Part shown: one piece after another, positions 7,256 through 24,736 of the stretch
Numbering within the stretch: the first letter of the stretch is position 1
How the letters are laid out: each line of letters opens with the position of its first letter
Assembly (NCBI GenBank): GCA_003141095.1
Contig: PLKM01000014.1
Span: 1 to 36,130, forward strand
DNA: 36,130 bases
Reading direction: 5' to 3'
Origin: Acidimicrobiaceae bacterium
GTDB lineage: Bacteria; Actinomycetota; Acidimicrobiia; Acidimicrobiales; RAAP-2
Notes under the pieces: generated by a model
Told to the model about the DNA's origin: nothing
Seen by the model: the letters and a program-made list of their open reading frames with translations, nothing else
The model's database searches: none
Translations under genes and position numbers: made by a program

Positions 7256-7292
7256 TGAGTCTGAGAATTTATTCCGTGAAATTCAACTCAAT

Positions 7293-7344
7293 TGTTAAAA
7301 TCTCTCAACTTGGGGTGAATTGTGTTAAAAAATCGCATATTGTG
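7293..7344 (+). promoter_or_regulatory. Two-box operator and promoter of the ABC-importer operon (DeoR-type, inferred)
   Basis: Box 1 at 7293-7310 (TGTTAAAATCTCTCAACT) and box 2 at 7322-7344 (beginning GTGTTAAAAAATCGCAT) recur before the deoR gene at 15636-15688 with 16/18 and 20/23 identity and nearly the same spacing (29 against 30 bases start to start). A candidate -10, CATATT at 7336-7341, lies inside box 2, so a bound repressor would block transcription. The start point would be near 7348, leaving a leader of about 115 bases. Binding by the DeoR protein encoded at 15694 is an inference from the shared sequence. Confidence 0.6.
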
Positions 7345-7462
7345 ACTCGATGGTCACTGTGCTTGTCTTCTCAAGGGCCATACGAGTTGATCTGAAGTAG
7401 CAATTGGTAGTGAGTACTTTGAACCGTCGAACCCTCGGGTTCTTTAAAAAAGGAGCTGGACT

Positions 7463-9118
7463 ATGAGAGAAAAGTTTAAAGGGGGTCTCGCCGCTCTGGC
7501 TCTCGCCCTCGTCGCAAGTACTTGCGTGCTCGCGCCATCAGTTGCGGGTGCCTCGGGTCAAGTGCCCTTGAACCTCGACAACGAGCAGGGAATGGAATGG
7601 GCCTGTTCGTTCAATCCCTTTCTCCCAACGTCGTCGCCGTATTCGGTTGGCGTCACGTATGAGACACTCGATTTCATCGACGCCCTGCAAAATGCCAAAG
7701 TGACGCCGTGGCTCGCTTCCGCGGATGCGTGGAGCAACAATGACAAGACGCTCACGTTCACGATTCGCTCCGGAGTGAAGTGGACCGACGGCAAGCCCTT
7801 CTCGGCTGCTGACGTGGCCTACACCTTCAACCTGCTCAAGAAGTACCCAGCCCTCGACTCCAACGCAGTCTGGTCGGTGCTTTCGAGCGTGAAGCAAGTG
7901 GGTAGTGACAAGGTCGTCTTCAACTTCTCGACCTCGGCAGTGCCGTACTTCTACTACGTCGCGGACCAGGTGCCAATCGTTCCCGAGCACATCTGGAGCA
8001 AGATTGCCAACCCCGTGACCGACCCCATCTCCAGTCCGGTTGGTACGGGTGGTTACATCATGTCCAAGTGCACGCCACAGAACATTCAATGGACGTCCAA
8101 TCCGCACTACTGGCAGCCCGGCTTGGCGCAGGTGAAGACGGTCAACATGCCCGCGTTCTTGTCGAACAACACCGCCAACGAATACTTGGCCACTGGCCAG
8201 TCCCAGTACGGCGCTCAGTTCATTCCGAACATCAAGTCGTACTACGTTGACAAGAAGGCCGGCAATAGCTACTGGTTCCCACCGGTCGCCAACGTGTCGC
8301 TCTTCCCGAACCTGACCGTCGCGGGCTTGAGTGACGTTGCCGTTCGCCAAGCAATCAGCTACGGCATTGACCGTGCAGCTGTTTCCAAGATTGGCGAGTA
8401 CGGCTACGAGCCGGCGGCCAGCCAGACCGGCATTGTGGCACCGACGTTCTCGTCGTGGTCGAGCAGTACCGCGATGAAGAGTGCGGGCTCCGGCTACGAC
8501 CCCGCGAAGGCGAAGGCGCTCTTGAAGGCCGACGGCTACAAGCTGGACAGCAGCGGCGTCTACGCGAAGAATGGCAAGCAGTTGGCGTTCACGGTCATCA
8601 CCAACGGTGGATACTCCGACTGGATCGCCTCGATGCAGGTCCTGAGCACGCAGTTGGCGAAGATCGGTATCAAGATCACGGTGGACCCGATCGCGAGCAG
8701 CAACTTCTACGCCGATGTCTACGCCGGCAAGTTCCAGCTCGCCTACAACGTTGAGACCGGTGGACCCTCGCCGTTCTACGAGTTCCGCCAGTGGCTGTAC
8801 TCGAAGAACTCGGCGCCCATTGGCCAAGCCGCGGCATCGAACTGGGAGCGTTACAACAGCCCCGCCGTCGACAAGCTGCTCAATCAGTACGGAGCGACGA
8901 CCAACGTGGCGACCCAGCACTCGATCATGAACCAGTTGCAGACGATCATGGTCCAGCAGGCGCCGGTCATCCCGGTCCTCGAAGAGGTCGACTGGTTCCA
9001 GTACAACACCAAGGAGTTCTCGGGATTCCCAACGGCGAAGAACCCCTTCGCGCAGCCAGCTCTGTACAACGAGCCCGACTGGGGCGTTGTTCTGCTGCAT
9101 CTGAAGCCGCTTAGTTAG
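7463..9118 (+). CDS. ABC importer substrate-binding protein, family 5 (oligosaccharide/peptide)
   Basis: A 551-residue extracytoplasmic binding protein of the SBP_bac_5 (OppA/DppA) family, which also contains cellobiose- and chito-oligosaccharide-binding members. Residues 1-30 are a Sec signal peptide (basic start, AALALALVAS core, cleavage likely after VAGA). Family landmarks follow: TFTIRSGVKWTDGKPFSAADVAYTF near 98-122, SSPVGTGGYIMSKC, then DVAVRQAISYGIDRAAV and the long C-terminal lobe. The AGGAG at 7451-7455 sits seven bases from the ATG. There is no lipobox: Cys21 is preceded by AST inside the hydrophobic core. In a one-membrane bacterium that is unusual for such proteins, so retention may depend on another feature. 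It leads the operon with permeases, ATPases and a hexosaminidase, hence chito-oligosaccharides are the inferred ligand. Confidence 0.88.
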   Translation: MREKFKGGLAALALALVASTCVLAPSVAGASGQVPLNLDNEQGMEWACSFNPFLPTSSPYSVGVTYETLDFIDALQNAKVTPWLASADAWSNNDKTLTFTIRSGVKWTDGKPFSAADVAYTFNLLKKYPALDSNAVWSVLSSVKQVGSDKVVFNFSTSAVPYFYYVADQVPIVPEHIWSKIANPVTDPISSPVGTGGYIMSKCTPQNIQWTSNPHYWQPGLAQVKTVNMPAFLSNNTANEYLATGQSQYGAQFIPNIKSYYVDKKAGNSYWFPPVANVSLFPNLTVAGLSDVAVRQAISYGIDRAAVSKIGEYGYEPAASQTGIVAPTFSSWSSSTAMKSAGSGYDPAKAKALLKADGYKLDSSGVYAKNGKQLAFTVITNGGYSDWIASMQVLSTQLAKIGIKITVDPIASSNFYADVYAGKFQLAYNVETGGPSPFYEFRQWLYSKNSAPIGQAAASNWERYNSPAVDKLLNQYGATTNVATQHSIMNQLQTIMVQQAPVIPVLEEVDWFQYNTKEFSGFPTAKNPFAQPALYNEPDWGVVLLHLKPLS

Positions 9119-9142
9119 AGAACTGCTGGGCTGAGTCGGGAG

Positions 9143-10126
9143 ATGAGATATTTAGTACGCCGTGTGGGCTTCCTGTTAGTTGCACTATGGGCCGCCCTAA
9201 CGTTGAACTTCCTCATCCCCCGACTCATGCCCGGCAATCCTGCCGAATCGATGATGGCGAAATTCCACGGCCACGTGAACCCCGCCGCCATCAAAGCCCT
9301 CGAAGTGGCCTTTGGGATCAATAACCACCAAAGCCTGATCTCCTCGTACTTCGAGTACATCAACAACACGCTGCACGGGAATCTCGGTCTCTCACTCAGT
9401 TACTTCCCGATTCCGGTGAGTACGGTGATCATGCGAGCGCTGCCTTGGTCACTCGGCCTCGTGGGGGTGAGCACGATACTGGGCTTCGTCATCGGAACGG
9501 CGCTCGGGGCAGTGGCGGCGTGGCGGCGTGGCGGGTTGTTGGACAGCGTGCTGCCGCCCGTCTTCATCGTCATCTCGGCCTTCCCCTATTTTTGGATCGG
9601 CCTTCTCTCAGTGTGGTTCTTCGCGCTGACCCTCGGATGGTTCCCCATTCTTGGTGGCTACACCGAGACGGCGACGGTGACGTGGAGTTTCTCCTTCGTG
9701 GGCGACATCTTGTGGCACGCGGTACTGCCCGCGTTCACGATTCTGCTCACCTCGATCGGTGGCTGGATTCTCACCATGCGCAACAACATGATCACGGTCG
9801 TCGCGGAAGACTACGTGAAGATGGCGCGGGCGAAGGGGCTCAAGCCACGACGAATCCTTTGGCAGTACGCCGGTCGAAACGCCTTGCTGCCCAACCTCAC
9901 GGGTTTTGCGATGTCGCTCGGTTTCGTCATTTCGGGCGCGATCCTGGTGGAGTACGTCTTCAACTACCCGGGCCTCGGCTTCACCCTGCTGCAGGCGGTG
10001 CAGAATGAGGACTACCCGCTGATGCAGTCGCTCTTCCTGCTCATCACCGTCGCCGTGTTGGTCGCGATATTCATCTCTGACATCGCGACCGCTCTCTTGG
10101 ATCCTCGCACCAGGAGCAGCTCATGA
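9143..10126 (+). CDS. ABC importer permease, DppB/OppB type
   Basis: A 327-residue inner-membrane permease with about six hydrophobic helices. The N terminus MRYLVRRVGFLLVALWAALTLNF and the PRLMPGNPAESMM segment are typical of DppB-like subunits. The cytoplasmic coupling loop is EDYVKMARAKGLKPRRILWQYAGRNALLP, the EAA motif that docks onto the ATPase; the last third, with SGAILVEYVFNYPGLG, is also highly conserved in the family. It follows the binding-protein gene by 24 bases and overlaps the next permease by four (ATGA), so subunits are made together. Forms the translocation pore with the following gene product. Confidence 0.9.
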   Translation: MRYLVRRVGFLLVALWAALTLNFLIPRLMPGNPAESMMAKFHGHVNPAAIKALEVAFGINNHQSLISSYFEYINNTLHGNLGLSLSYFPIPVSTVIMRALPWSLGLVGVSTILGFVIGTALGAVAAWRRGGLLDSVLPPVFIVISAFPYFWIGLLSVWFFALTLGWFPILGGYTETATVTWSFSFVGDILWHAVLPAFTILLTSIGGWILTMRNNMITVVAEDYVKMARAKGLKPRRILWQYAGRNALLPNLTGFAMSLGFVISGAILVEYVFNYPGLGFTLLQAVQNEDYPLMQSLFLLITVAVLVAIFISDIATALLDPRTRSSS

Positions 10127-11022
10127 GGTTTCTGTCCTCTCTTGGTGGCGCGCTCGCGAGGGCCTCGAAGTTCATTCGGCGTGACAAGAAGGCCGCCGCC
10201 GGATCCATCATCTTGTTCGTGCTTCTGTTGATCACGGCCTTTCCGTCGTGGTTCGCCCCCGACAATCCGTCGGCCGAGATCTACACCCCCGGCGTGGGCC
10301 TCTCGTGGTCCCATCTTCTGGGCACCACCTCCTTTGGTCAGGACGTCTTTTCCCAGCTCATCGTGGGAACGCGCCAATCGGTGATGATCGCGCTAATCGT
10401 GGGCCTGCTTTCGACGATTCTCTCGGTGGGCATCGGCATCACCGCGGCGTACTCGGGGGGAATGGTCGACGACGCCCTGTCGCTCATTACCGACGTGGTG
10501 CTCGTCATTCCGACGTTCCCTCTCATCATCGTGATCACCGCGTACCTCAAGGCCGCCAGCTTCTGGCTCATGGTATTCGTCCTCGTCATCACGGGTTGGT
10601 CGTACGGGGCCCGCCAACTCCGGGTCCAGGCGCTGTCGTTGCGCAACCGCGACTACCTCCTCGCGGCGAAGGCGCGCGGTGAGTCCAGTTGGTACGTGAT
10701 CTGCGTGGAGCTCATTCCGCCCATGACGTCGCTCATCGTCGCCAACTTCCTGAGTTCGGCCCTCTACGCGGTGTTGATGGCGGCGGGCCTGCAGTTCGTC
10801 GGGCTCGGCAACATCAACACCGAGTCGTGGGGCACCATGCTCTACTGGGCCCAGAACAACGAGGCGCTTTCGATTGGGCTGCCGCTCTGGGCGCTGGCCC
10901 CGGGAGTCGCCATCGCCATTCTGGGCAGCGCCCTGGCCCTGCTGAACTACGCCTTTGACGAAATAGCCAACCCCGCGCTGCGCCCGGTCTCGGCGAGACG
11001 TCTGAAGAAGGCCGAAGCGTGA
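10123..11022 (+). CDS. ABC importer permease, DppC/OppC type
   Basis: A 299-residue partner permease. It has the DppC-family N-terminal helix (KKAAAGSIILFVLLLITAFPSWFAPDNP), the HLLGTTSFGQDVFSQLIVGTRQSV segment just after it, and the EAA loop RNRDYLLAAKARGESSWYVICVELIPP. About six membrane helices. The start overlaps the upstream stop codon (ATGA) and its stop overlaps the GTG start of the first ATPase (GTGA), so the four transporter genes are translationally coupled. Works with the 9143 permease as a heterodimer. Confidence 0.9.
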   Translation: MRFLSSLGGALARASKFIRRDKKAAAGSIILFVLLLITAFPSWFAPDNPSAEIYTPGVGLSWSHLLGTTSFGQDVFSQLIVGTRQSVMIALIVGLLSTILSVGIGITAAYSGGMVDDALSLITDVVLVIPTFPLIIVITAYLKAASFWLMVFVLVITGWSYGARQLRVQALSLRNRDYLLAAKARGESSWYVICVELIPPMTSLIVANFLSSALYAVLMAAGLQFVGLGNINTESWGTMLYWAQNNEALSIGLPLWALAPGVAIAILGSALALLNYAFDEIANPALRPVSARRLKKAEA

Positions 11023-11990
11023 GCCAACCTATCCTGCAACTTCGTGATTTACGGGTCGAGTACGCGACGCCGACGGGCCCCGCCCTGGCGGTGAGCGGTG
11101 TGTCGCTCGATCTCGAACAGGGCGAGTTCCTCGCCATCGTTGGCGAGTCGGGCTGCGGCAAGTCCACCCTGCTGTTCGCCATCGCGCAACTCCTCACCTA
11201 CCCCGCGAGCCTCACCGGCGGTACGGTCGTGTTCGATGGCGTTGACCTCACGTCGCTGTCGCCCGAGGATCTGCGTCTTCATCGCTGGCGTGACATCTCG
11301 GTCGTGATGCAGAGTGCGATGAACGCCCTCAATCCCACGCTGACCATCGGCGCGCAGCTCGCCGATGCCTGTCGGGCCCACACGGACTGGGACCACGAGC
11401 GCATTGCCGAGCGCTCGGCGGAGGTCTTCTCCATGGTGTCGATCGACCCGGTGCATCTGAAGAGTTATCCGTTCCAGCTCTCGGGCGGCATGCGCCAGCG
11501 GGCCATGATCGCCATGGCCCTCTTGTTGGAGCCGAAGCTGGTGATCATGGACGAACCGACGTCGGCCTTGGATGTGGTCGCCCAGCGCTCGCTGATGCGC
11601 CAGGTCGAGACCTTGCGCCGCGAACTGGGATTCTCGGTGCTCTTCGTTACCCACGACATGAGCGTCGTTTCGCACTTCTCGGACCGGCTCGCCGTTATGT
11701 ACGCTGGAGAAGTGGTGGAGCTCGGCGCAACCCGTGAAGTTTTCGACCGGCCCCAGCACCCTTATTCCCAAGGCCTGATGGAGGCCTTCCCCTCGTTGTT
11801 CGGTGAGGTTCGCCCGCTCACGGGGATAGCCGGCAACCCCCCGTCGCTGGTGAATTCGCCGCCCGGATGTCTCTTCGCGCCTCGTTGCCCGCACGTCATG
11901 GACGAGTGCCGAGAGTGGCGCCCGGAGTTGGTCACCAACGGAACCCACGCCGTTCGATGCCACCTCATCAACAAGGTGTTGCGCACGTGA
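11019..11990 (+). CDS. ABC importer ATPase, DppD/OppD type
   Basis: A 323-residue ATP-binding subunit starting GTG. Walker A GESGCGKST (42-50), Q-loop VVMQSAMNALNP, signature LSGGMRQR (154-161), Walker B LVIMDEP (174-180), D-loop SALD and H-loop VTHDMS are all intact. After the nucleotide domain comes the C-terminal oligopeptide-transporter extension with GCLFAPRCPHVMDEC, whose cysteines are known in several family members to hold an iron-sulfur cluster. Overlaps both neighbours by four bases. Pairs with the next ATPase to power uptake. Confidence 0.92.
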   Translation: MSQPILQLRDLRVEYATPTGPALAVSGVSLDLEQGEFLAIVGESGCGKSTLLFAIAQLLTYPASLTGGTVVFDGVDLTSLSPEDLRLHRWRDISVVMQSAMNALNPTLTIGAQLADACRAHTDWDHERIAERSAEVFSMVSIDPVHLKSYPFQLSGGMRQRAMIAMALLLEPKLVIMDEPTSALDVVAQRSLMRQVETLRRELGFSVLFVTHDMSVVSHFSDRLAVMYAGEVVELGATREVFDRPQHPYSQGLMEAFPSLFGEVRPLTGIAGNPPSLVNSPPGCLFAPRCPHVMDECREWRPELVTNGTHAVRCHLINKVLRT

Positions 11991-12955
11991 GCGAGCCCAT
12001 CCTCAAGGTGCAGAGCCTGTCACGACAGTTCCGGGTCGGTGGATTTCGATCGCGGGGGCAGTTGCACGCCACCGACGAGGTCTCGTTCGAGGTGGCACCC
12101 GGCGAGATCGTGGCGCTGGTGGGCGAGTCGGGTTCGGGAAAGTCGACCATCGCGCGCGTTCTCGCGGGACTGTACCCGCCGACGTCGGGTTCGATCGTGT
12201 TCGAGAACAAGGTCCTTGGTCGCAAGCCAACCCGCAGCGTCCGCGGGCGTATGCCGATGGTCTTCCAGGATCCCTTCGGTTCCATCAATCCGGTGCTGCG
12301 GGTCGGGCACAGCCTGCTTCGATCGCTGAAGTTACACCGACCCGACGTGGCGAAGTCGGAGCGCTTCGCTGAGGCGGTCGCCCTCTTGGAGAAGGTTGGC
12401 CTGACGCCCGGGGTCGAGGTCCTCGAGCGCTATCCCCACGAACTCTCGGGTGGCCAGCGCCAGCGACTTGGTTTCGCCCAAGCCCTCGCGTCGCGACCCT
12501 CGTTGATTTTGGCCGATGAGCCGGTGTCGATGCTCGACGTTTCGATTCGCATCGGTCTCTTGAACGTCATGAAAGGGCTTCGCGACAACGATGGCGTCTC
12601 GCTGCTCTACATCACTCACGATCTGGCGAGTGCCCGTTACGTTGCGGACCGCATGATCGTCCTGTACGCTGGGCGCATCGTCGAAGAGGGCCTCACCGAA
12701 GAAGTCATTGGATCGCCGCAGCATCCCTACACGCGCCTGCTCATGTCGACGGCCCCCGATCCGCGCTTGAAGCTCACGGACTACGAGGGCGCCGACGATC
12801 TGGGTGAGCCGCCCAAAGTCATCAACCCCGGCCCGGGGTGCCGTTTTGCACCACGGTGTCCCCTGGTCATGGCGCAGTGTCGAACGAGCACGCCGGCCAT
12901 GGTCGAGCTGTCGCCGACCCACCGAGCGGCCTGTTATGCAGTCGAGAAGAAGTAG
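11987..12955 (+). CDS. ABC importer ATPase, DppF/OppF type
   Basis: A 322-residue second ATPase of the importer. The GTG at 11987 overlaps the upstream stop (GTGA) and gives VSEPILKVQSLSRQF, the normal family N terminus; a longer frame exists but would run through the previous gene. Walker A GESGSGKST near 47-55, Q-loop VFQDPFGSINP, signature LSGGQRQR near 153-160, Walker B LILADEP and H-loop ITHDLA are intact. The C terminus again has the four-Cys extension, GCRFAPRCPLVMAQC. The last base of its TAG stop is the first base of the GTG start of the hexosaminidase. Confidence 0.92.
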   Translation: MSEPILKVQSLSRQFRVGGFRSRGQLHATDEVSFEVAPGEIVALVGESGSGKSTIARVLAGLYPPTSGSIVFENKVLGRKPTRSVRGRMPMVFQDPFGSINPVLRVGHSLLRSLKLHRPDVAKSERFAEAVALLEKVGLTPGVEVLERYPHELSGGQRQRLGFAQALASRPSLILADEPVSMLDVSIRIGLLNVMKGLRDNDGVSLLYITHDLASARYVADRMIVLYAGRIVEEGLTEEVIGSPQHPYTRLLMSTAPDPRLKLTDYEGADDLGEPPKVINPGPGCRFAPRCPLVMAQCRTSTPAMVELSPTHRAACYAVEKK

Positions 12956-14487
12956 TGAATCTGGGACTGGTACCCCAGCCGCGTTCGATTGCGGCCCGGC
13001 CCGGGGGCGTCGTGTGGGAGTCGCCGTTACGAATCTCGGTTGAAGACGATTGGCGCGAGATCGTTGAGACCTTCGCCGTTGATCTGAGTGCCTCGATTGG
13101 TTGGCGGGTCGAGATCGTGGACGAACAAGCGAAACCCGATATTCAAATCCTGCGGGTTCTTGAGTACCGCGACGAGGACTACCAGATTCGAACCGGCGAG
13201 TGCACCACCATAGAGGCGAGCTCTCGGGCGGGCGCCTCCTACGCGCTGACGATGCTGCGCCAAATGGCGCCAGTGGCGCTGTGGTCGAACACCCTTCGAG
13301 AACTCGAAAAGATCGAGCTTCCACGATTCGTGATCAATGATGGTCCAAAATTCCGTTGGCGTGGGGTGCACCTCGACGTGGCGCGCCACTTCTGGGACGT
13401 GGCGACGGTGTGCCGGCTGATCGATCAACTGGCGGCGCATCGGCTCAATAAGTTGCACCTCCATCTGAACGACGATCAAGGCTGGCGGGTCGAGATTCCC
13501 ACGTGGCCGCGGCTGAGTGAGGTCGGTTCACGGCGCCGGTCCTCGCCCCTTGGTCACGAGGTCGACGGTCGTGATGACAACATTGCCCACGGTGGCTCTT
13601 ACAGCGCGAACGATCTCGCCATCATCCGAGAGCACGCGGTCAAACGGTGCGTGCAGATAGTCCCCGAAATCGATCTGCCCGGTCACGCGCAGGCCGTCAT
13701 CGCCGCGTACGCGCAGTTGGGCAACGTGAGCGAGCCACTCGAGGTCTGGACGCGCTGGGGCATTTCGGATCACGTCCTCAACGTCGGGCCCGAAGCCCTC
13801 GATTTCGCCGAAGAGGTGGTCTGCTACGTCGCGAGCCTCTTTCCCGACAGCCCAGTGCATATCGGGGGCGACGAATGTCCGACGACGGAGTGGGAAAGCA
13901 GTGCCCTCGCCCGAGCGGTGATGGATGAACACGGCTTCACCGAGGCTCGCCAACTGCAGGGCCTCTTCACGAAGCGCCTGACCGGAGCGCTGCAGCGGGA
14001 TCATCACGAAGTGATCGCCTGGGACGAGGTACTCGATGCGGACGACTCACCGGGAACCGTGATCATGGCGTGGCGCAGCTCGAGAAAGGGCGTCGAAGCC
14101 GCGAGGCGGGGTCGCGACGTCATCATGGCGCCCATGCAGTTCCTCTACTTCGACTGGCTGAACAGCGTGGACGCGGGCGAACCAATCGCGCTGACGCTCG
14201 CGCCCCAGGCCACCACCTGGGAGAAGGTCTACGGATTCTCGATATTTCCGCCGGGTCTCGAACCCGACCTTCGCCACCACATTCGTGGAGCGCAGGCTCA
14301 ACTGTGGAGCGAGTACATCGCGACACGCGACCATCTCGACTACATGGCCTTTCCACGAATCAGCGCCTTCAGTGAGGTGGCGTGGGGAACCAGCACCATG
14401 GTGAGCGATTTTCGCAAACGCCTCGCCCTTCATCTCGAGCGCCTCAGCGCGATGGGCGTGGCCTATCGACCACTCGACCCCGCATAA
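12955..14487 (+). CDS. Cytosolic GH20 beta-N-acetylhexosaminidase
   Basis: A 510-residue family 20 glycoside hydrolase that removes terminal beta-linked GlcNAc or GalNAc by substrate-assisted catalysis. It has the N-terminal GH20b domain (about 1-125) and a TIM barrel from about 128: FRWRGVHLDVARHFW, HRLNKLHLHLNDDQGWRVEI, EIDLPGHAQAV and HIGGDECPTTEW with the catalytic Asp306-Glu307 pair; WDEVLD and QAQLWSEYI follow as in the family. There is no signal peptide, so it acts inside the cell on oligosaccharides brought in by the importer encoded just upstream. The GTG start shares one base with the preceding stop codon, and its own TAA shares one base with the next ATG. This gene is the best clue that the importer handles chitobiose or similar sugars. 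Confidence 0.92.
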   Translation: MNLGLVPQPRSIAARPGGVVWESPLRISVEDDWREIVETFAVDLSASIGWRVEIVDEQAKPDIQILRVLEYRDEDYQIRTGECTTIEASSRAGASYALTMLRQMAPVALWSNTLRELEKIELPRFVINDGPKFRWRGVHLDVARHFWDVATVCRLIDQLAAHRLNKLHLHLNDDQGWRVEIPTWPRLSEVGSRRRSSPLGHEVDGRDDNIAHGGSYSANDLAIIREHAVKRCVQIVPEIDLPGHAQAVIAAYAQLGNVSEPLEVWTRWGISDHVLNVGPEALDFAEEVVCYVASLFPDSPVHIGGDECPTTEWESSALARAVMDEHGFTEARQLQGLFTKRLTGALQRDHHEVIAWDEVLDADDSPGTVIMAWRSSRKGVEAARRGRDVIMAPMQFLYFDWLNSVDAGEPIALTLAPQATTWEKVYGFSIFPPGLEPDLRHHIRGAQAQLWSEYIATRDHLDYMAFPRISAFSEVAWGTSTMVSDFRKRLALHLERLSAMGVAYRPLDPA

Positions 14488-15491
14488 TGGTCGGCGATCC
14501 CGACACCCTCTCACGACTTCGTCGGTTCCTGCCCACGGCGCCGCCGGACGTCGTTGAGCGTGTGCGGACATTCTCCACGACGCAACTGGTCGTCGTCCTC
14601 GAAGGGCTGGATCTCGCCAAGTCCGCGATTGACGAGATTGCCGGGCACTGGGACGGCTTTCGACGCGACGAGGTTTGGATACAACTCTTGGCCGACCTGG
14701 TGGTCGTGGTCGAGGAGCAGCGGGGCAATATAGATGCTCCGCTGCTCGTATGGCCGGACATGGAAGAGAGTGGGCCGAGTGGGCGACTGCTGTTCTTCTA
14801 CCTTTTCGCCCTCTGTCACGACGGGACGAGGGATTTTCTTCGCACGGCGGGTTGCCCCGAGGACGTCATTCATTCGACGTTCAGCGTGCTCCGCCGTCAC
14901 GCGCAGCTCCATGAACGAAAAATTGGGACCCTCGGCGTCGACGCGGGTTGGTGGATGATGCCGACGCTGCGCGGCGAAATAGTCCACGTGGGCAGTCTGC
15001 AGTTTCATCGCGTCACCCTGGGTGTCGGGACCCTCAGCCCTTTCCCGTGGTACGACGACGACCACGTCGCGACGCTCGGGGTGGGATTCCGTCGCGGCGA
15101 TCCCTCGATCGGCCTCCACATTCCCGAAGGGACCGATCTGTCGCCCGCTGCGTTGGACGCGACGTTGGAGCGTGCCTGCACGGTGCTCGGCGCTATGTGG
15201 CCGGTCGATCAGCGTCGGCTCGCGACGTGTCAGACCTGGATGCTCGAGGACCGGCTCAACGGTTATCTCTCCGCGACCAGCAACATCGTGCAGTTCCAAC
15301 AGAGGTTCAGCATGTTGCCCACCTGGCACGAGGACGACGGCGACGTGCTCGAATTCGTATTTCGCCAAACGGCACCTGTGCTGAACGAACTAAAGCCGAC
15401 AACCACTGCGCAGCGAGCGGTCCTCGACGTGCTCGCGCACGGCGGACATTGGCGTATCCGTACGGGCTGGCTCGACTTCGATGGAGCGTAA
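14487..15491 (+). CDS. GNAT-like acyltransferase-domain protein (NAT_N + GNAT_C type)
   Basis: A 334-residue soluble protein. The C-terminal half matches my memory of the GNAT_C domain (formerly DUF5596): a conserved W-Mt region (DAGWWMMPTLRGEIVHVGSLQFHRV), GLHIPEGTDLSPAALDATLERA, then TCQTWMLEDRLNGYLSATSNIVQFQQRF. The N-terminal part (about 1-125) corresponds to the helical NAT_N domain found with it. Proteins of this make-up are named acyltransferases from fold, but I know of no established substrate. The ATG overlaps the hexosaminidase stop by one base, so it is the last gene of the importer operon and is made with it. A role in acylating or deacylating an amino sugar or its derivative is an inference from location only. 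Confidence 0.7.
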   Translation: MVGDPDTLSRLRRFLPTAPPDVVERVRTFSTTQLVVVLEGLDLAKSAIDEIAGHWDGFRRDEVWIQLLADLVVVVEEQRGNIDAPLLVWPDMEESGPSGRLLFFYLFALCHDGTRDFLRTAGCPEDVIHSTFSVLRRHAQLHERKIGTLGVDAGWWMMPTLRGEIVHVGSLQFHRVTLGVGTLSPFPWYDDDHVATLGVGFRRGDPSIGLHIPEGTDLSPAALDATLERACTVLGAMWPVDQRRLATCQTWMLEDRLNGYLSATSNIVQFQQRFSMLPTWHEDDGDVLEFVFRQTAPVLNELKPTTTAQRAVLDVLAHGGHWRIRTGWLDFDGA

Positions 15492-15635: not shown

Positions 15636-15688
15636 TGTCAAAATATCTCAACTCGTAGGCCACGAGTGTTAAAAAATCACATAATATG
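15636..15688 (+). promoter_or_regulatory. Two-box operator and promoter of the deoR operon
   Basis: Box 1 at 15636-15653 (TGTCAAAATATCTCAACT) and box 2 at 15666-15688 (beginning GTGTTAAAAAATCACAT) repeat the element found at 7293-7344. A good -10, TAATAT at 15682-15687, lies in box 2 and ends seven bases before the ATG at 15694, which points to a leaderless mRNA. A GGAGGGGG run at 15620-15627 is too far upstream to be the ribosome-binding site. The arrangement implies self-repression by the DeoR-type protein. Confidence 0.6.
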
Positions 15689-15693
15689 GGGCG

Positions 15694-16479
15694 ATGAACA
15701 CCAAAACTCGCAGAGCTGACATCGCTGGGCGTTTGCAGGTTGAAGGTGAAGCCGCAATTGTTGAGCTCGCGGCGCTCTACGGGACGTCGGAGATGACAAT
15801 ACGCCGTGACCTCGAACTGTTGGAGTCGGCCGGTTTGGCGCGTCGCACGCGCGGTGGCGCCATTTCAGTCCAGAGTCGTTCGTTCGAACCACCAATCTTG
15901 CAGCGCGCAGCGCACATGGCCGAGGACAAGCGACGCATCGGAGTCGCCGCGGCGGCGCTCTTGAGTGAGAACGAGACCGTGGTGTTCGACGTCGGAACGA
16001 CGATCCACGAAATGGCCAAGGCTGTCAGAGATGATCTCGCCATCACGGTGATTACGAGTTCACTCTTGATCGCCACCGAGCTGAGCACGCGACCGTCGGT
16101 GAGGACCATCGTGACCGGTGGGGTCGTGCGCATTGGTGAGATGAGTTTGGTGGGTCCTCGGGCCCAGGCGTCGTTTGATGACCTCAACTGCGACACGGTC
16201 TTTCTAGGGGTGGCCGGAATCAGCGACGTCAAGGGTCTCAGCGAGTACAACCTCGATGACGCCTACGTGAAACAGACAGCGATCAACTCGGGCCGACGAG
16301 TTGTCGTGTTGGCCGACGCATCGAAGATCGGTCAAATCGCATTCGTGACCGTGGCGCCCATCAGCGTGGTTGATCTGCTCATCACCACCGCCCTGCCTAC
16401 GAACCCCACCATTCATCGTCTTAAGGATCAAGGTGTCGAAGTGATGCACATCGAACCATTCAACAAGGAGAAGGACTGA
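15694..16479 (+). CDS. DeoR-family transcriptional regulator
   Basis: A 261-residue regulator. Residues 1-60 form the DeoR winged helix-turn-helix; MTIRRDLELLESAGLARRTRGGAI is the recognition-helix signature of the family. The rest is the sugar-phosphate-sensing DeoRC domain of the ribose-phosphate-isomerase fold, with FDVGTTIHEMAKAV (effector phosphate site), TSSLLIATEL, TGGVVRIGEMSLVGPRA and LADASKIGQIAFVTVAPI. Such proteins usually repress sugar genes until a phosphorylated sugar binds. It heads an operon with BtpA, FGGY kinase and SDR genes; its TGA overlaps the next ATG by one base. Its promoter carries the same element as the importer operon, so it probably rules both. The effector is unknown. 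Confidence 0.9.
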   Translation: MNTKTRRADIAGRLQVEGEAAIVELAALYGTSEMTIRRDLELLESAGLARRTRGGAISVQSRSFEPPILQRAAHMAEDKRRIGVAAAALLSENETVVFDVGTTIHEMAKAVRDDLAITVITSSLLIATELSTRPSVRTIVTGGVVRIGEMSLVGPRAQASFDDLNCDTVFLGVAGISDVKGLSEYNLDDAYVKQTAINSGRRVVVLADASKIGQIAFVTVAPISVVDLLITTALPTNPTIHRLKDQGVEVMHIEPFNKEKD

Positions 16480-17282
16480 TGTCCCGATTTCGTACAATCT
16501 TTCCCGATGTGGCCAAGCCACTCATCGCCATGGCGCACGTCCCACCGCTTCCGGGCACGCCGCTCTACGACGCCGCCGCTGGCGTGCAGGGTCTCATAGA
16601 TCACGTGAAGCGTGACACGGAGAAACTTCTCGACGGCGGCTTCGACGCGATACTTTTCTGCAACGAGGGAGACCGGCCCTATCAACTCAACGCTGGTCTC
16701 GAGGCTTCGGCGGTGATGGCTCGCGTGGCGGCCGAGTGCCGGCCGGCCGACCGGCCCTTCGGTGTCGACTTTCTGTGGGATGCGCAGTGCGCGCTCGCCA
16801 TCGCGGTGGGTAGTGGAGCATTCTTCATGCGTGAGGTGATCACCGGCTCGTGGGAGTCGGACATGGGTCCATGGAATCCCGACGCCGCCACGCTGCTGCG
16901 CAACCGGCACAACTTCGGACGTGACGATCTGGCCATATTCGCCAACATCACCCCGGAGTTCGCCTCGAGCATCGGTCAGCGCACGCCAGCGCAGATGGCC
17001 AAGTCGACGGTGGTGTCGAGCCTCGCGGACGTGATCCTGGTCTCGGGTCCCATGGCGGGCAGCGAGCCCGATGTCAGAACCGTCGCCGAGGTTCGTGAAG
17101 CCGTCGACAAATCGGTGCCAGTCCTGTTGAACACCGGCGCGAAGGCCGCGACCATCAAGGAGTTCTTCCGATTCGCCGATGGCTGCATCGTCGGCAGCGA
17201 CCTGAAGCGCGATGGCTACACGTGGAATGAAGTTGATCCCGAGAGAGTCAAGCGATTCGTCGACGCGGCACGTAGTGCCTGA
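16479..17282 (+). CDS. BtpA/SgcQ-family TIM-barrel protein
   Basis: A 267-residue soluble protein of the BtpA family (MAHVPPLPGTPLYD near the start, then FDAILFCNEGDRPY, FGVDFLWDAQCALAIAVGSGAFFMREVITG, DVILVSGPMAGSEPD and DGCIVGSDLKRDG). BtpA was first linked to photosystem I biogenesis in cyanobacteria, but relatives in other bacteria (such as SgcQ in E. coli) sit in sugar operons and have no proven reaction. The late GSDLK segment resembles a phosphate-binding loop of TIM-barrel enzymes acting on phosphorylated substrates. AAGGAG at about 16465-16470 is a good ribosome-binding site. Its stop overlaps the FGGY kinase start. In this context it is likely an enzyme of the sugar pathway controlled by the DeoR protein. 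Confidence 0.82.
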   Translation: MSRFRTIFPDVAKPLIAMAHVPPLPGTPLYDAAAGVQGLIDHVKRDTEKLLDGGFDAILFCNEGDRPYQLNAGLEASAVMARVAAECRPADRPFGVDFLWDAQCALAIAVGSGAFFMREVITGSWESDMGPWNPDAATLLRNRHNFGRDDLAIFANITPEFASSIGQRTPAQMAKSTVVSSLADVILVSGPMAGSEPDVRTVAEVREAVDKSVPVLLNTGAKAATIKEFFRFADGCIVGSDLKRDGYTWNEVDPERVKRFVDAARSA

Positions 17283-18765
17283 GTCGGGGCGCCAATTGCT
17301 TTTAGGAATTGATCTTGGATCGTCGGGTGTGAAGGCGGTACTGCTCGATCCGAGAAGCGGCATCGTGGCATCGCGGTCCCAGGACGTCGCTCTCCATTGC
17401 GATTACCCCGGCTGGGCGGAAGCCAATCCGCTCGATTGGTTCGCGGCGGTGTGCGCGTTGGTCCCACAACTCCTGCGCGCCGCGGGCGTTGCCAACTCGG
17501 CAATACGCGGCGTGGCCGTCGCGGGCATGGTGCCCGCGGTGCTGGCGCTGGACGAGAATGGTCGACCACTGCGCCGCGCCATTCTGCAAAACGACGCCCG
17601 CGCGACCCAGGAGATACGCGACGTCCGAGAGGCCCTCGGCGGCCTCGATCTCTTGCGCCTCACCGGCTCCGTGCTTTCCCAGCAGTCGGTCGCGCCCACT
17701 GCGCTGTGGCTCGCTCGACATGAACCAGACGTATGGTCGGCGACGTCGTCCCTGCAAGGTTCGTACGACTGGTTGGCGCGAACCCTGGGCGCCGAGGCGC
17801 ACGTGGAACAGAATTGGGCGCTCGAGAGCGGTCTGTACAACATCGACATGTCACCGCTCTCGGCGGTGATTGAGGCCACGGGTATCGCGTGGCCCGAACT
17901 TCTCGACGTGAAAGTGTCCGGCGCGCGTGTCGGCGAGGTGAGTCAGAGCGCCGCTCAAGCCACTGGTCTGCGAGCGGGCACCCCGCTGATCGTCGGCGGC
18001 GCCGATCACGTGCTGTCGGCGTTCGGCGCCGGCCTCGTGGAGCAGGGTGACTGCCTCGTCAAACTCGGCGGGGCCGGGGACATACTGGCGGTGACCGACC
18101 ACGTCTTTCTCGATGAGCGCCTGTACCTCGACAGCCACCCGATGCCCGGCAAGTGGTTGCCCAACGGTTGCATGGCGACCAGCGGATCGCTGCTTCGTTG
18201 GGAGCAGTCAATCTTCAACGCGGTGCCGCTGAGCGAGTTGGACGACGCGGCAGCGGCGAGCTCGCCGGGGGCGCTGCTCGCGTTGCCCTACTTCTTGGGC
18301 GAGAAGACACCGCTGCACGACCCCGACCTTCGAGGTGTGATGATTGGGCTGCACCTCGGCACGACGCGAGGCGACATCCATCGATCGTTCCTCGAGGCGA
18401 TCGCCTACGGATTCAGGACGCACTTCGACGTCTTCGCGCAGAGTGGACTGACGATCGGACGAACGAGAATCACGAACGGCGGCTCGAAGTCGCGCCTCTG
18501 GCGCGAAATATTGGCGGACGTGTTGAACCGCGACCTCATTTCCATCATCGATCACCCCGGCGCCTCCTACGGAGCTGCCGTCCTCGCCGGCATCGGCACC
18601 GGGCTCATCAGCGACTGGTCGTACGTGACGGCGGGACTGGAAGAAGGCGAGATTATCTCGCCGAATCAAGAGAACGTCGCGCTCTACGACGAGCGTTACC
18701 AGGAGTTCCTTGAACTGACCGAGGCCACCAGATCGATTTCCCACTTACTTGCGAGGAGTTCATAA
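17275..18765 (+). CDS. FGGY-family carbohydrate kinase (xylulokinase-like)
   Basis: A 496-residue kinase. The GTG at 17275, which overlaps the BtpA stop by eight bases, gives VPESGRQLLLGIDLGSSGVKAVLLD with the phosphate-1 loop at the proper place; a longer frame from 17212 is unlikely. Other landmarks are GWAEANPLDWF, the GGADHVLSAFGAG region with the probable catalytic Asp244, VKLGGAGDIL, YFLGEKTPLHDPDLRG and TNGGSKSRLWREILADVLN, with GASYGAAVLAG near the end, as in xylulokinases and related pentulose/polyol kinases. It should phosphorylate a ketose or polyol with ATP; the exact sugar cannot be read from sequence. Its TAA shares one base with the SDR start. Confidence 0.88.
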   Translation: MPESGRQLLLGIDLGSSGVKAVLLDPRSGIVASRSQDVALHCDYPGWAEANPLDWFAAVCALVPQLLRAAGVANSAIRGVAVAGMVPAVLALDENGRPLRRAILQNDARATQEIRDVREALGGLDLLRLTGSVLSQQSVAPTALWLARHEPDVWSATSSLQGSYDWLARTLGAEAHVEQNWALESGLYNIDMSPLSAVIEATGIAWPELLDVKVSGARVGEVSQSAAQATGLRAGTPLIVGGADHVLSAFGAGLVEQGDCLVKLGGAGDILAVTDHVFLDERLYLDSHPMPGKWLPNGCMATSGSLLRWEQSIFNAVPLSELDDAAAASSPGALLALPYFLGEKTPLHDPDLRGVMIGLHLGTTRGDIHRSFLEAIAYGFRTHFDVFAQSGLTIGRTRITNGGSKSRLWREILADVLNRDLISIIDHPGASYGAAVLAGIGTGLISDWSYVTAGLEEGEIISPNQENVALYDERYQEFLELTEATRSISHLLARSS

Positions 18766-19529
18766 TGACGAGACCAATTGCCTGCGTGACGGGAGCGGGA
18801 TCGGGCATCGGTGCCGCAATCGCGACGACGCTCGGACATCGTGGCTTTCACGTGGTGGTCACCGACATCGACGTCGCGAGCGCGCAACGGGTCGCCGACG
18901 GCATCGAAAGCGCCCAGGCTTTCGCTCTTGACGTGACGAGTCCCGCAGCGTGCGACGAGCTCGTAAGTGGTGTTGTCGGCGAGCACGGTCGTCTGGACGT
19001 GTGGGTTTCCAACGCCGGCATCTCCAAGATGCAGCGCTTTGTCGATATCTCTCCGGCGGACCTCGTCCGCAATTTCGAGGTCAACACCTACGGCGTCTTC
19101 TACTGTGGCCAGTCCGCCGCTCGCGCCATGATTGCTCTCGGGACGAAGGGTCGCATCATCAACACCGCCTCCATGGCCGCCAAGCAGGGCGGGGTCCCCT
19201 TCCTCGCGGACTACGTGGCGAGCAAGTTCGCGGTGCTCGGGCTCACCCAAGCCATGGCTTTCGAGCTCGCTCCCTACGGCATACGGGTGAACAGTGTGTG
19301 CCCGGGTTTCGTCGCGACCCCAATGCAGACGCGCGAACTCGCCTGGGAAGCCGAACTACGCGGCAGTGATCCCGAGAGCGTGAGGCAGTCGTGGATCAAC
19401 GACACCCCGCTCGCTCGTCTCGAGACACCCGACGACGTGGCGAAGGTGGTGGCGTTCCTCGCCTCTGAGGACGCCGACTTCCTTACGGGTGAGTCAATCT
19501 CGGTCAACGGTGGCGCGTACATGGATTGA
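18765..19529 (+). CDS. Short-chain dehydrogenase/reductase
   Basis: A 254-residue classical SDR. TGAGSGIG (9-16) binds the cofactor, Asp34 after the second beta strand favours NAD(H), NAGI lies at 83-86, and the catalytic Ser136 (NTASMAA), Tyr150 and Lys154 (DYVASKFAV) are intact; NSVCPGFVATPM follows. The C terminus GESISVNGGAYMD is typical. GAGGAG precedes the ATG, which overlaps the kinase stop by one base. In an operon with a pentulose-type kinase it probably oxidises a polyol to a ketose before phosphorylation, an arrangement known for several sugar-alcohol pathways. Confidence 0.88.
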   Translation: MTRPIACVTGAGSGIGAAIATTLGHRGFHVVVTDIDVASAQRVADGIESAQAFALDVTSPAACDELVSGVVGEHGRLDVWVSNAGISKMQRFVDISPADLVRNFEVNTYGVFYCGQSAARAMIALGTKGRIINTASMAAKQGGVPFLADYVASKFAVLGLTQAMAFELAPYGIRVNSVCPGFVATPMQTRELAWEAELRGSDPESVRQSWINDTPLARLETPDDVAKVVAFLASEDADFLTGESISVNGGAYMD

Positions 19530-23558: not shown

Positions 23559-23981
23559 ATGAGTCAAACTATGAATGGACTGGTCGCGGTTGCCATGACG
23601 CGCGATGAGGCGCGCGTCTGGGCTACCGGAGTCGAGCGGGGCACGAAGCCCACGAACATCCGCGCACCGAGCGAGATGGAGCGTCATCATCACATTCGCG
23701 AAGCCCAGCATCATCCCGGCCACGACATCGACCACGACAGCTCGGCGTTCTACAAGTCGATCACCGAAGCAGTCGGCCCGGCGTCGGCGATTCTGTTGAT
23801 CGGCCACGGCAAGGGGAAGGCCAACGAGATGCTGCACCTCACGCAGTACTGGGAGCGCAAGCACCCCGACATCGCCCAGAAGGTCGTCGGTGCGATCGAC
23901 AGCGACCTCGAAGCTCTTTCCCAGGACCAGGTGCTGGCCCTGATTCGTGACTGGTACGAGGAGTACAAGGAGTTCATCTAA
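23559..23981 (+). CDS. eRF1/Pelota-like small protein, copy 1
   Basis: A 140-residue soluble protein of the group annotated as translational-machinery or bacterial eRF1-domain-3-like proteins. It starts MNGLVAVAMTRDEARVWATGVE (the usual DxxxARVW/F strand), has a His-rich middle (ERHHHIREAQHHPGHDIDHD) and the core FYKSITEAVGPASAILLIGHGKGKANEMLHL, followed by HPDIAQKVVGAIDSDLEALSQDQVLAL. The GHGKGK loop stands where relatives have GPGTAK-type sequences. Function is unknown; links to ribosome rescue or stress are inferred from the fold. AGAAAGG precedes the ATG. A paralogue lies 332 bases downstream. Confidence 0.75.
   Translation: MSQTMNGLVAVAMTRDEARVWATGVERGTKPTNIRAPSEMERHHHIREAQHHPGHDIDHDSSAFYKSITEAVGPASAILLIGHGKGKANEMLHLTQYWERKHPDIAQKVVGAIDSDLEALSQDQVLALIRDWYEEYKEFI
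23757..23938 (+). repeat. Near-identical 182-base block, copy 1
   Basis: Matches 24512-24693 with two mismatches in 182 bases, whereas the 5' parts of the same two genes are only about three-quarters identical. The abrupt edge at TCGATCACCG points to gene conversion rather than simple old duplication. Confidence 0.9.
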
Positions 23982-24313
23982 GCGTTCCTTCCCGGGTTAT
24001 TCGTCAAAGCGCGTCGGGCGCCTTGGTTCGCCCTTGCGGGCTGGGGTGGCTTATTGAGCCGCAGGGCGAACGTCCGAGCACGTTGGGGTGGGGTAGTTGG
24101 CGAAGTGGGCTCCGCGGGTGCAGAGATTGAGGAACCACGGCTAGTCCACGTTCGCCATTGACTCGATGAAGTTCTGCGAGCACCCGCAGAACCTGATGTC
24201 GAGTTCGCGACCGCCCTGAAGCGAGTTGTTGCGGATCGACTTGCTTGGTGCAATCGCTCAGTGGACTTGGATGACCCCTGTTGGATAGGTTGAGAAGGAG
24301 AGAGAGGTTTGCC
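23982..24313. other. Gap between the twin genes, with a hairpin
   Basis: No gene I can support. A perfect 8-base stem GTTCTGCG/CGCAGAAC sits at 24171-24178 and 24185-24192 with a 6-base loop. A short plus-strand frame around it (VLRAPAEPDVEFATALKRVV) looks protein-like but has no start, so the stretch may be the remains of a third gene. The last 30 bases, with GAGAGAGGTTTGCC before the ATG, resemble the leader of copy 1. Confidence 0.4.
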
Positions 24314-24736
24314 ATGAGTGAATCAATGAATGGTTTGGTGGCGGTGGCGATCATGCGCGATGAGGCGCGAGTGTGGGCCACGGGCGTCGAGCGGGGCACG
24401 AAGCCCGAAAGCGTCCACGCGCCGAGTGAGAAGGCACGTCACCATCATGTTCGCGAGGCCCAACACCACCACGGGCACGACACCGACCACCAAAGCTCGA
24501 TCTTCTACGAATCGATCACCGAAGCAGTCGGCCCGGCGTCGGCGATTCTGTTGATCGGCCACGGCAAGGGCAAGGCCAACGAGATGCTGCACCTCACGCA
24601 GTACTGGGAGCGCAAGCACCCCGACATCGCCCAGAAGGTCGTCGGTGCGATCGACAGCGACCTCGAAGCTCTTTCCCCGGACCAGGTGCTGGCGTTGGTT
24701 CGTAGCTGGTTCGACCAGTACGAAGAGATCGTCTGA
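24314..24736 (+). CDS. eRF1/Pelota-like small protein, copy 2
   Basis: A 140-residue paralogue of the preceding protein with the same length, start (MNGLVAVAIMRDEARVWATGVE), His-rich middle (KARHHHVREAQHHHGHDTDH) and GHGKGKANEMLHL core. It differs mainly in residues 1-65 and in the last ten (VRSWFDQYEEIV). The His clusters could bind metal. Leader GAAGGAGAGAGAGG gives a good ribosome-binding site; an in-frame ATG eleven codons earlier is less likely. Just after its stop, GAGTTCGTCTGA (24744-24755) repeats the kind of 3' end seen in copy 1, as if a tail of another copy were left behind. Function unknown. Confidence 0.75.
   Translation: MSESMNGLVAVAIMRDEARVWATGVERGTKPESVHAPSEKARHHHVREAQHHHGHDTDHQSSIFYESITEAVGPASAILLIGHGKGKANEMLHLTQYWERKHPDIAQKVVGAIDSDLEALSPDQVLALVRSWFDQYEEIV
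24512..24693 (+). repeat. Near-identical 182-base block, copy 2
   Basis: Partner of 23757-23938; the two differences are a G/C change in the GHGKGK codons and an A/C change next to the CTCTTTCC sequence. Confidence 0.9.

Follow-up and report, generated by a model that had tools for sequence, protein, structure and literature searches.

Paired boxes before a DeoR-family regulator gene and a predicted chito-oligosaccharide importer operon in an Acidimicrobiaceae genome: candidate double operators of a local regulon

Two promoters and the genes behind them

Within the window, the whole 36,130-nucleotide stretch of Acidimicrobiaceae DNA that was analysed, closely similar sequence stands upstream of two operons, one predicted to import chito-oligosaccharides and the other opening with the gene of a DeoR-family regulator. 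The question raised by this locus is whether that likeness marks both operons as targets of one regulator and, if so, of which. The relevant features, all on the forward strand, are as follows (R1 denotes a profile of related sites described below).

7293..7307, +, box O1 of the importer promoter, TGTTAAAATCTCTCA; inside the R1 match 7293-7343 (E 4.8e-7)
7315..7320, +, putative -35 of the importer promoter, GTGAAT, an inferred promoter element 17 bp upstream of the -10
7323..7337, +, box O2 of the importer promoter, TGTTAAAAAATCGCA, between the -35 and the -10
7338..7343, +, putative -10 of the importer promoter, TATTGT (TANNNT)
7350..7400, +, mini-ORF of 16 codons, starting at the expected importer transcript start
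7463..15491, +, importer operon: SBP_bac_5 binding protein, two permeases, two ATPases, GH20 hexosaminidase, NAT_N/GNAT_C acyltransferase
15636..15650, +, box O1 of the deoR promoter, TGTCAAAATATCTCA; outside the R1 match, which spans the O2 half only
15667..15681, +, box O2 of the deoR promoter, TGTTAAAAAATCACA; R1 match 15664-15687 (E 0.0065)
15682..15687, +, putative -10 of the deoR promoter, TAATAT, ending 6 nt upstream of the deoR start codon
15694..16479, +, DeoR-family regulator, PF08220 and PF00455 above cut-offs; proposed ligand of all four boxes
16479..19529, +, rest of the deoR operon: BtpA-family protein, FGGY kinase, SDR dehydrogenase

In the importer operon, for which the permease and ATPase labels were read from the ORFs rather than from a library search, the binding protein belongs to SBP_bac_5 (PF00496) and has as a solved relative 1zty, Chitin Oligosaccharide Binding Protein (E 2e-54), and the solved relatives of the GH20 protein are beta-N-acetylhexosaminidases. 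Judging by the names of solved relatives, the range of family 5 binding proteins extends to peptides and further ligands; a chito-oligosaccharide substrate is nevertheless a reasonable prediction for the importer. The acyltransferase (14487-15491) is the last gene of the operon, and ROK and SIS genes lie upstream of the importer set. Elsewhere in the window, the neighbouring ORFs 23559-23981 and 24281-24736 have very similar translations, likely the outcome of a duplication.

By its domains the 15694-16479 protein is a member of the DeoR family with both domains intact, the helix-turn-helix PF08220 scoring 53.9 bits (cut-off 21) and the DeoRC sensor PF00455 148.5 bits (cut-off 31.8). The NCBIfam equivalog cut-off was not reached for any of three named subfamilies, namely E. 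coli DeoR (122.7 of 244 bits), AgaR (168.8 of 260) and haloarchaeal GlpR (181.8 of 300). The named relatives are from actinobacterial metagenome bins, Acidimicrobiaceae among them.

The paired boxes: anatomy, chance and conservation

Each promoter carries two copies of a 15-bp box, O1 being placed upstream of the -35 and some three helical turns upstream of O2. An earlier sequence-only reading had drawn longer boxes and counted 36 common bases in 41, a figure reproduced here with those boxes (7293-7310 against 15636-15653, 16/18; 7322-7344 against 15666-15688, 20/23). The start-to-start spacings of 29 and 30 given there hold if box 2 begins one base earlier, and between homologous bases become 30 (7293 to 7323) and 31 (15636 to 15667); across the sites now collected the spacing is mostly 30-32 bp, again about three helical turns. 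That the boxes cover the -10 was true of the earlier 23-bp box 2, whereas the conserved 15-bp O2 adjoins it; and the spacers, previously described as unrelated, resemble each other less than the boxes do yet retain some likeness, with the -35 lying inside them. A third, degenerate box-like stretch, TCTGAGAATTTATTC, occurs at 7260-7274, 33 bp before the importer O1, and a similar one was seen 18 bp upstream of O1 at the importer promoters of four relatives (L057, L059, L060 and L061).

That the shared sequence might be a chance likeness between two A+T-rich promoters draws some substance from the G+C content of the intergenic regions (49% and 55%, against 62% in the window). However, the best ordered pair of 15-mers between the two regions, sought with spacings of 20-45 that differed by no more than 1 between regions, scored 27/30 and lay in the boxes; that score was reached in none of 1000 dinucleotide shuffles, of which the maximum was 24. 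These shuffles, together with the recurrence of the sites across the genus, refute chance likeness, the probability of which is close to nil. A four-box pattern allowing up to three mismatches, albeit one derived post hoc from the boxes themselves, returned four matches in the window, namely these four boxes, a number attained in 0/100 shuffles. In the genome of origin (2.51 Mb, 93% complete) the single-box pattern TGTTAAAAWATCNCA gave six matches at up to two mismatches, compared with two for the backward control: these four boxes, with 0-1 mismatch, and two single ones (L005 and L006) with two mismatches each, which R1 did not report and which were set aside as further targets. The random scatter through the genome that the sequence-only reading had named as its counter-case was thus not observed in the genome of origin, either by pattern count or by R1.

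A first-stage sample of 16 deoR upstream regions, reduced to 11 by leaving out five that were not BtpA-linked (L062, L064, L066, L067 and L068), had the paired box before 11/11 BtpA-linked deoR genes and 8/9 binding-protein genes; upstream of the five deoR loci lacking BtpA no such pair was found. In many relatives the box is a clear dyad, TGTGAAAAWTTCWCA, about one central base (5-6 of 7 pairs complementary), and the boxes of the window (TGTTAAAA, TGTCAAAA) have weaker symmetry, with 3-4 of 7 dyad pairs. TANNNT directly followed O2 in 19/19 sites, its TA having been part of the pattern by which O2 was located, and a TTG -35 was placed 17 bp upstream of the -10 in 14/19.

When the deoR and importer sites were compared within each of eight genomes, agreement was 105/120 (88%) in O1 and 111/120 (93%) in O2, falling to 59/126 (47%) in the spacer and to 79/240 (33%) and 53/144 (37%) in the flanks; TTGNNN stood at the putative -35 in 6/8 of these importer sites. 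These figures bear on the proposal that the two regions carry copies of one core promoter, retained for the sake of RNA polymerase and containing no operator. Such a duplicate would account for O2 adjoining the -10 in all sites, and for 15 of 20 importer sites having a start codon as far from the -10 as that of deoR, but it is improbable given that O1, which lies outside the core promoter, is conserved like O2, and that the sequence tracks one regulator across genomes (see below). The spacer sequence between -10 and -35 elements is, moreover, not normally conserved, which counts against it too.

Occurrence of the sites among relatives

Profile R1 was derived from 15 sites in other genomes, the window's own genome and its nearest relative (G028) having been left out. 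At E<=1 it matched the 2.51 Mb genome of origin at 7293-7343 and 15664-15687 only, and G028 only at the two expected places; upstream of the ROK-SIS genes no R1 site was returned. These two scans, and that of the 99 genus genomes, were run with stricter filters under which part of the candidates were scored. A DeoR orthologue (E<=1e-60) was present in 35 of the 99, one genome (G014) whose match at E 2.4e-45 fell below the cut-off being counted as negative. R1 at E<=0.1 matched 25 genomes, all possessing the orthologue, and 0/64 of those without it; with the nine training genomes removed, the comparison was 16/26 against 0/64 (Fisher p 2.5e-11, relatedness ignored), figures to be read in the knowledge that R1 was trained on DeoR-positive genomes only and that the genus genomes, being related, do not give independent counts. 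At E<=1 a single weak partial match (E 0.39-0.83) was recorded in each of three orthologue-free genomes (G023, G033 and G056).

The 51 R1 rows obtained at E<=0.1 reduced to 47 distinct places, four being opposite-strand readings, of which 25 stood directly before deoR and 20 directly before the importer binding-protein gene. The other two, before neither gene, were weak matches: G010:C52 (E 0.022), preceding a probable lipoprotein gene, and G451:C142 (E 0.040). The earlier suggestion of one regulon with self-control consequently gains support at the sequence level, the pair occurring before deoR and the importer gene in many genus genomes and almost nowhere else.

A wider scan of the order, in which no more than 14 candidates from any one genome were scored so that weak sites could be lost, gave matches at E<=0.05 in 7/397 genomes: G000, G018 and five partial matches (E 0.029-0.038) which are no more than chance expectation at such E-values. 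Among 80 named DeoR loci scanned with R1, five (L115, L116, L118, L119 and L120) matched at E<=0.1 and three (L121, L117 and L191) only at E 0.13-0.18, the other 72 giving nothing at E<=1; L115-L120 are contigs of G458, G457, G441, G024, G473 and G477, and L122 of G011, and each was counted once. A Chloroflexota bin (L125:1239 onward) has the same order DeoR-BtpA-FGGY-SDR with unlike upstream sequence, and the cassette is therefore more widespread than the operator.

The distribution also bears on the suggestion that a different regulator, for instance one of the Crp/FNR type, binds the boxes. The O2 of relatives, TGTGA-AAAAT-TCACA, is indeed near a Crp site, which is of the TGTGA...TCACA kind with half-sites 6 bp apart. 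In the present boxes, however, the half-sites are 5 bp apart; a global regulator would be expected to have many sites, not two places in its own genome; and at E<=0.1 none of the 64 genus genomes without DeoR has an R1 match. Binding by such a protein is accordingly considered very unlikely.

Orthologues of DeoR in genomes of the same genus mostly share the gene order deoR-BtpA-FGGY-SDR, with BtpA directly after deoR in 29/35 DeoR-positive genomes. All 29 of these BtpA-linked deoR genes have kept the site core (an O2-like box of at least 11/15, TANNNT, and a start codon 6-7 nt further on), O1 scoring at least 10/15 in 26 and R1 being passed by 25. The ten DeoR-positive genomes without an R1 match comprise four that are BtpA-linked (G328, G480, G441 and G291), which have the O2-like box and a weak or absent O1, and six that are not, namely five orphans and G439, where the DeoR match begins at residue 23 and the start was not located. 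The five orphan deoR genes lacking BtpA (L247-L251) differ in site geometry, with a TTGACT -35 flanked in 5/5 cases by TGTGAR and TGTGAA at a distance of 21 bp from each other. The deoR site is also present in three genomes (G010, G441 and G480) where no importer adjoins the deoR-BtpA-FGGY-SDR cassette.

According to the available text of PMC3160421, leaderless genes are recognised by TANNNT some 12 bp upstream of the start codon. The 29/29 BtpA-linked deoR genes in which TANNNT ends 6-7 nt before the start codon fit that description, and the deoR mRNA is probably leaderless because of this short distance from the -10.

By comparison the importer site is lineage-dependent, being found in 20/26 testable genomes against 29/29 for the deoR site core. 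The 26 leave aside G478, in which the binding-protein gene is at the very start of the contig, as well as G441 and G480, with no importer in the stretches fetched; the site is absent from G003, G010, G018, G477, G328 and G291. Before the binding-protein gene, the site-less G010, G003 and G328 (L098, L099 and L244) share GTACTAGGTT followed by GCAGGT(G/T)CATTC, and something similar occurs in G018 and G477; this is possibly another promoter or a regulator site.

Proposed control, its age and its setting

The reading preferred here is that the four boxes would very probably constitute two double operators of the local DeoR protein, which would repress its own and the importer operon. It is favoured because the sites are conserved before both gene sets and matched by R1 (E<=0.1) only in DeoR-positive genomes, because the boxes agree far better than the spacers or flanks, and because the DeoR domains are intact. 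Against it stand the weak dyads of the window, the poor -35 of its deoR promoter and the restriction of the R1 match to the O2 half there, as well as the 10/35 DeoR-positive genomes without an R1 match and the importer site missing in 6/26. On the proposed mechanism, a DeoR dimer would occupy each box, with O1 and O2 on one helix face and bound cooperatively; occupation of O2 would bar RNA polymerase, so that the deoR-BtpA-FGGY-SDR and importer operons would both be repressed, and release would be brought about by a sugar phosphate, either derived from the chito-oligosaccharide taken up or produced by the FGGY kinase.

Were DeoR to bind the boxes and yet activate one or both operons, the location of O1 upstream of the -35 would be apt, as would the poor -35 elements of the window (GTGAAT, and GCCACG at the -35 position of a deoR promoter that lacks a good one). 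The position of O2 between -35 and -10 is, however, that of a repressor, and 21/29 BtpA-linked deoR promoters have a -35 of the TTG type at 17 bp from the -10; activation is consequently assigned only a very small likelihood.

The two sites may differ in age. When a tree of DeoR+BtpA is rooted on the orphans, the early branches are G010 and a G003-G328 pair, G018-G477 fall near the window's clade and G291 is late; in a separate tree of 16 loci, two deep nodes had support of only 55 and 62. Since the importer site is absent on the early branches, the deoR site may be the older, the importer having joined later with at least one subsequent loss. An ATG or GTG stands 6 nt after the -10 in 15/20 importer sites, which is the deoR start position; among the importer sites compared, the mini-ORF peptide was not conserved. 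Because the early branches G010, G003 and G328 lack the site and 15/20 sites keep ATG/GTG, the importer could conceivably have entered the regulon by acquiring a duplicate of the leaderless deoR promoter together with its start codon, a tentative idea that is on balance doubtful. If true, the sequence would record the expansion of a regulon through transfer of a promoter, and the importer mRNA would bear a leaderless mini-ORF, the translated leader being a relic or a second control.

The E. coli DeoR site is TGTTAGAATTCTAACA, which resembles the boxes described here. In the accessible portions of the sources, palindromes are the sites recognised by DeoR regulators from E. coli, B. subtilis and Salmonella, SugR being different in this respect (PMC2222622), and the several operators of E. 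coli DeoR, about 600 bp apart, are used together and joined by loops (PMC8053113). The window protein would be akin to E. coli DeoR, on what those portions describe, in family, in acting on more than one operator and in the joint use of operators, the palindromic character of the E. coli sites being matched by a clear dyad in many relatives and more weakly in the window; it differs in that the E. coli operators are single sites, whereas here pairs 30-32 bp apart lie within one promoter, and in scoring 122.7 against the cut-off of 244. SugR of Corynebacterium glutamicum, in the same accessible text, is a DeoR-type protein that represses genes for sugar uptake until sugar phosphates release it, and it is pleiotropic with a 21-bp A+C-rich non-palindromic motif (PMC2222622). 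It is alike as an actinobacterial DeoR-type regulator for which, as proposed here, sugar uptake genes are targets of repression, and unlike in motif and breadth, a dyad and two targets in the genome being found here. AgaR shares the family and the amino-sugar theme and is the second-best NCBIfam model (168.8 bits); it is unlike in that the score is under the cut-off of 260 and in that the genes nearby here encode BtpA-FGGY-SDR and an importer of the binding-protein type accompanied by GH20.

No description of this regulon was recognised in the open-licence literature among the matches listed. As far as sequence comparison can tell, the locus most likely represents a DeoR regulon that is local, controls itself and uses a compact double operator; control of this sort is ordinary, while the group of bacteria has been little studied. 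A DNA motif, two target operons and a metabolic context would thereby be assigned to a so far uncharacterised DeoR protein from an actinobacterial genus known through metagenomes. Chito-oligosaccharide uptake would be tied to the BtpA-FGGY-SDR cassette, the substrate of which becomes testable because the cassette should be induced along with the importer.
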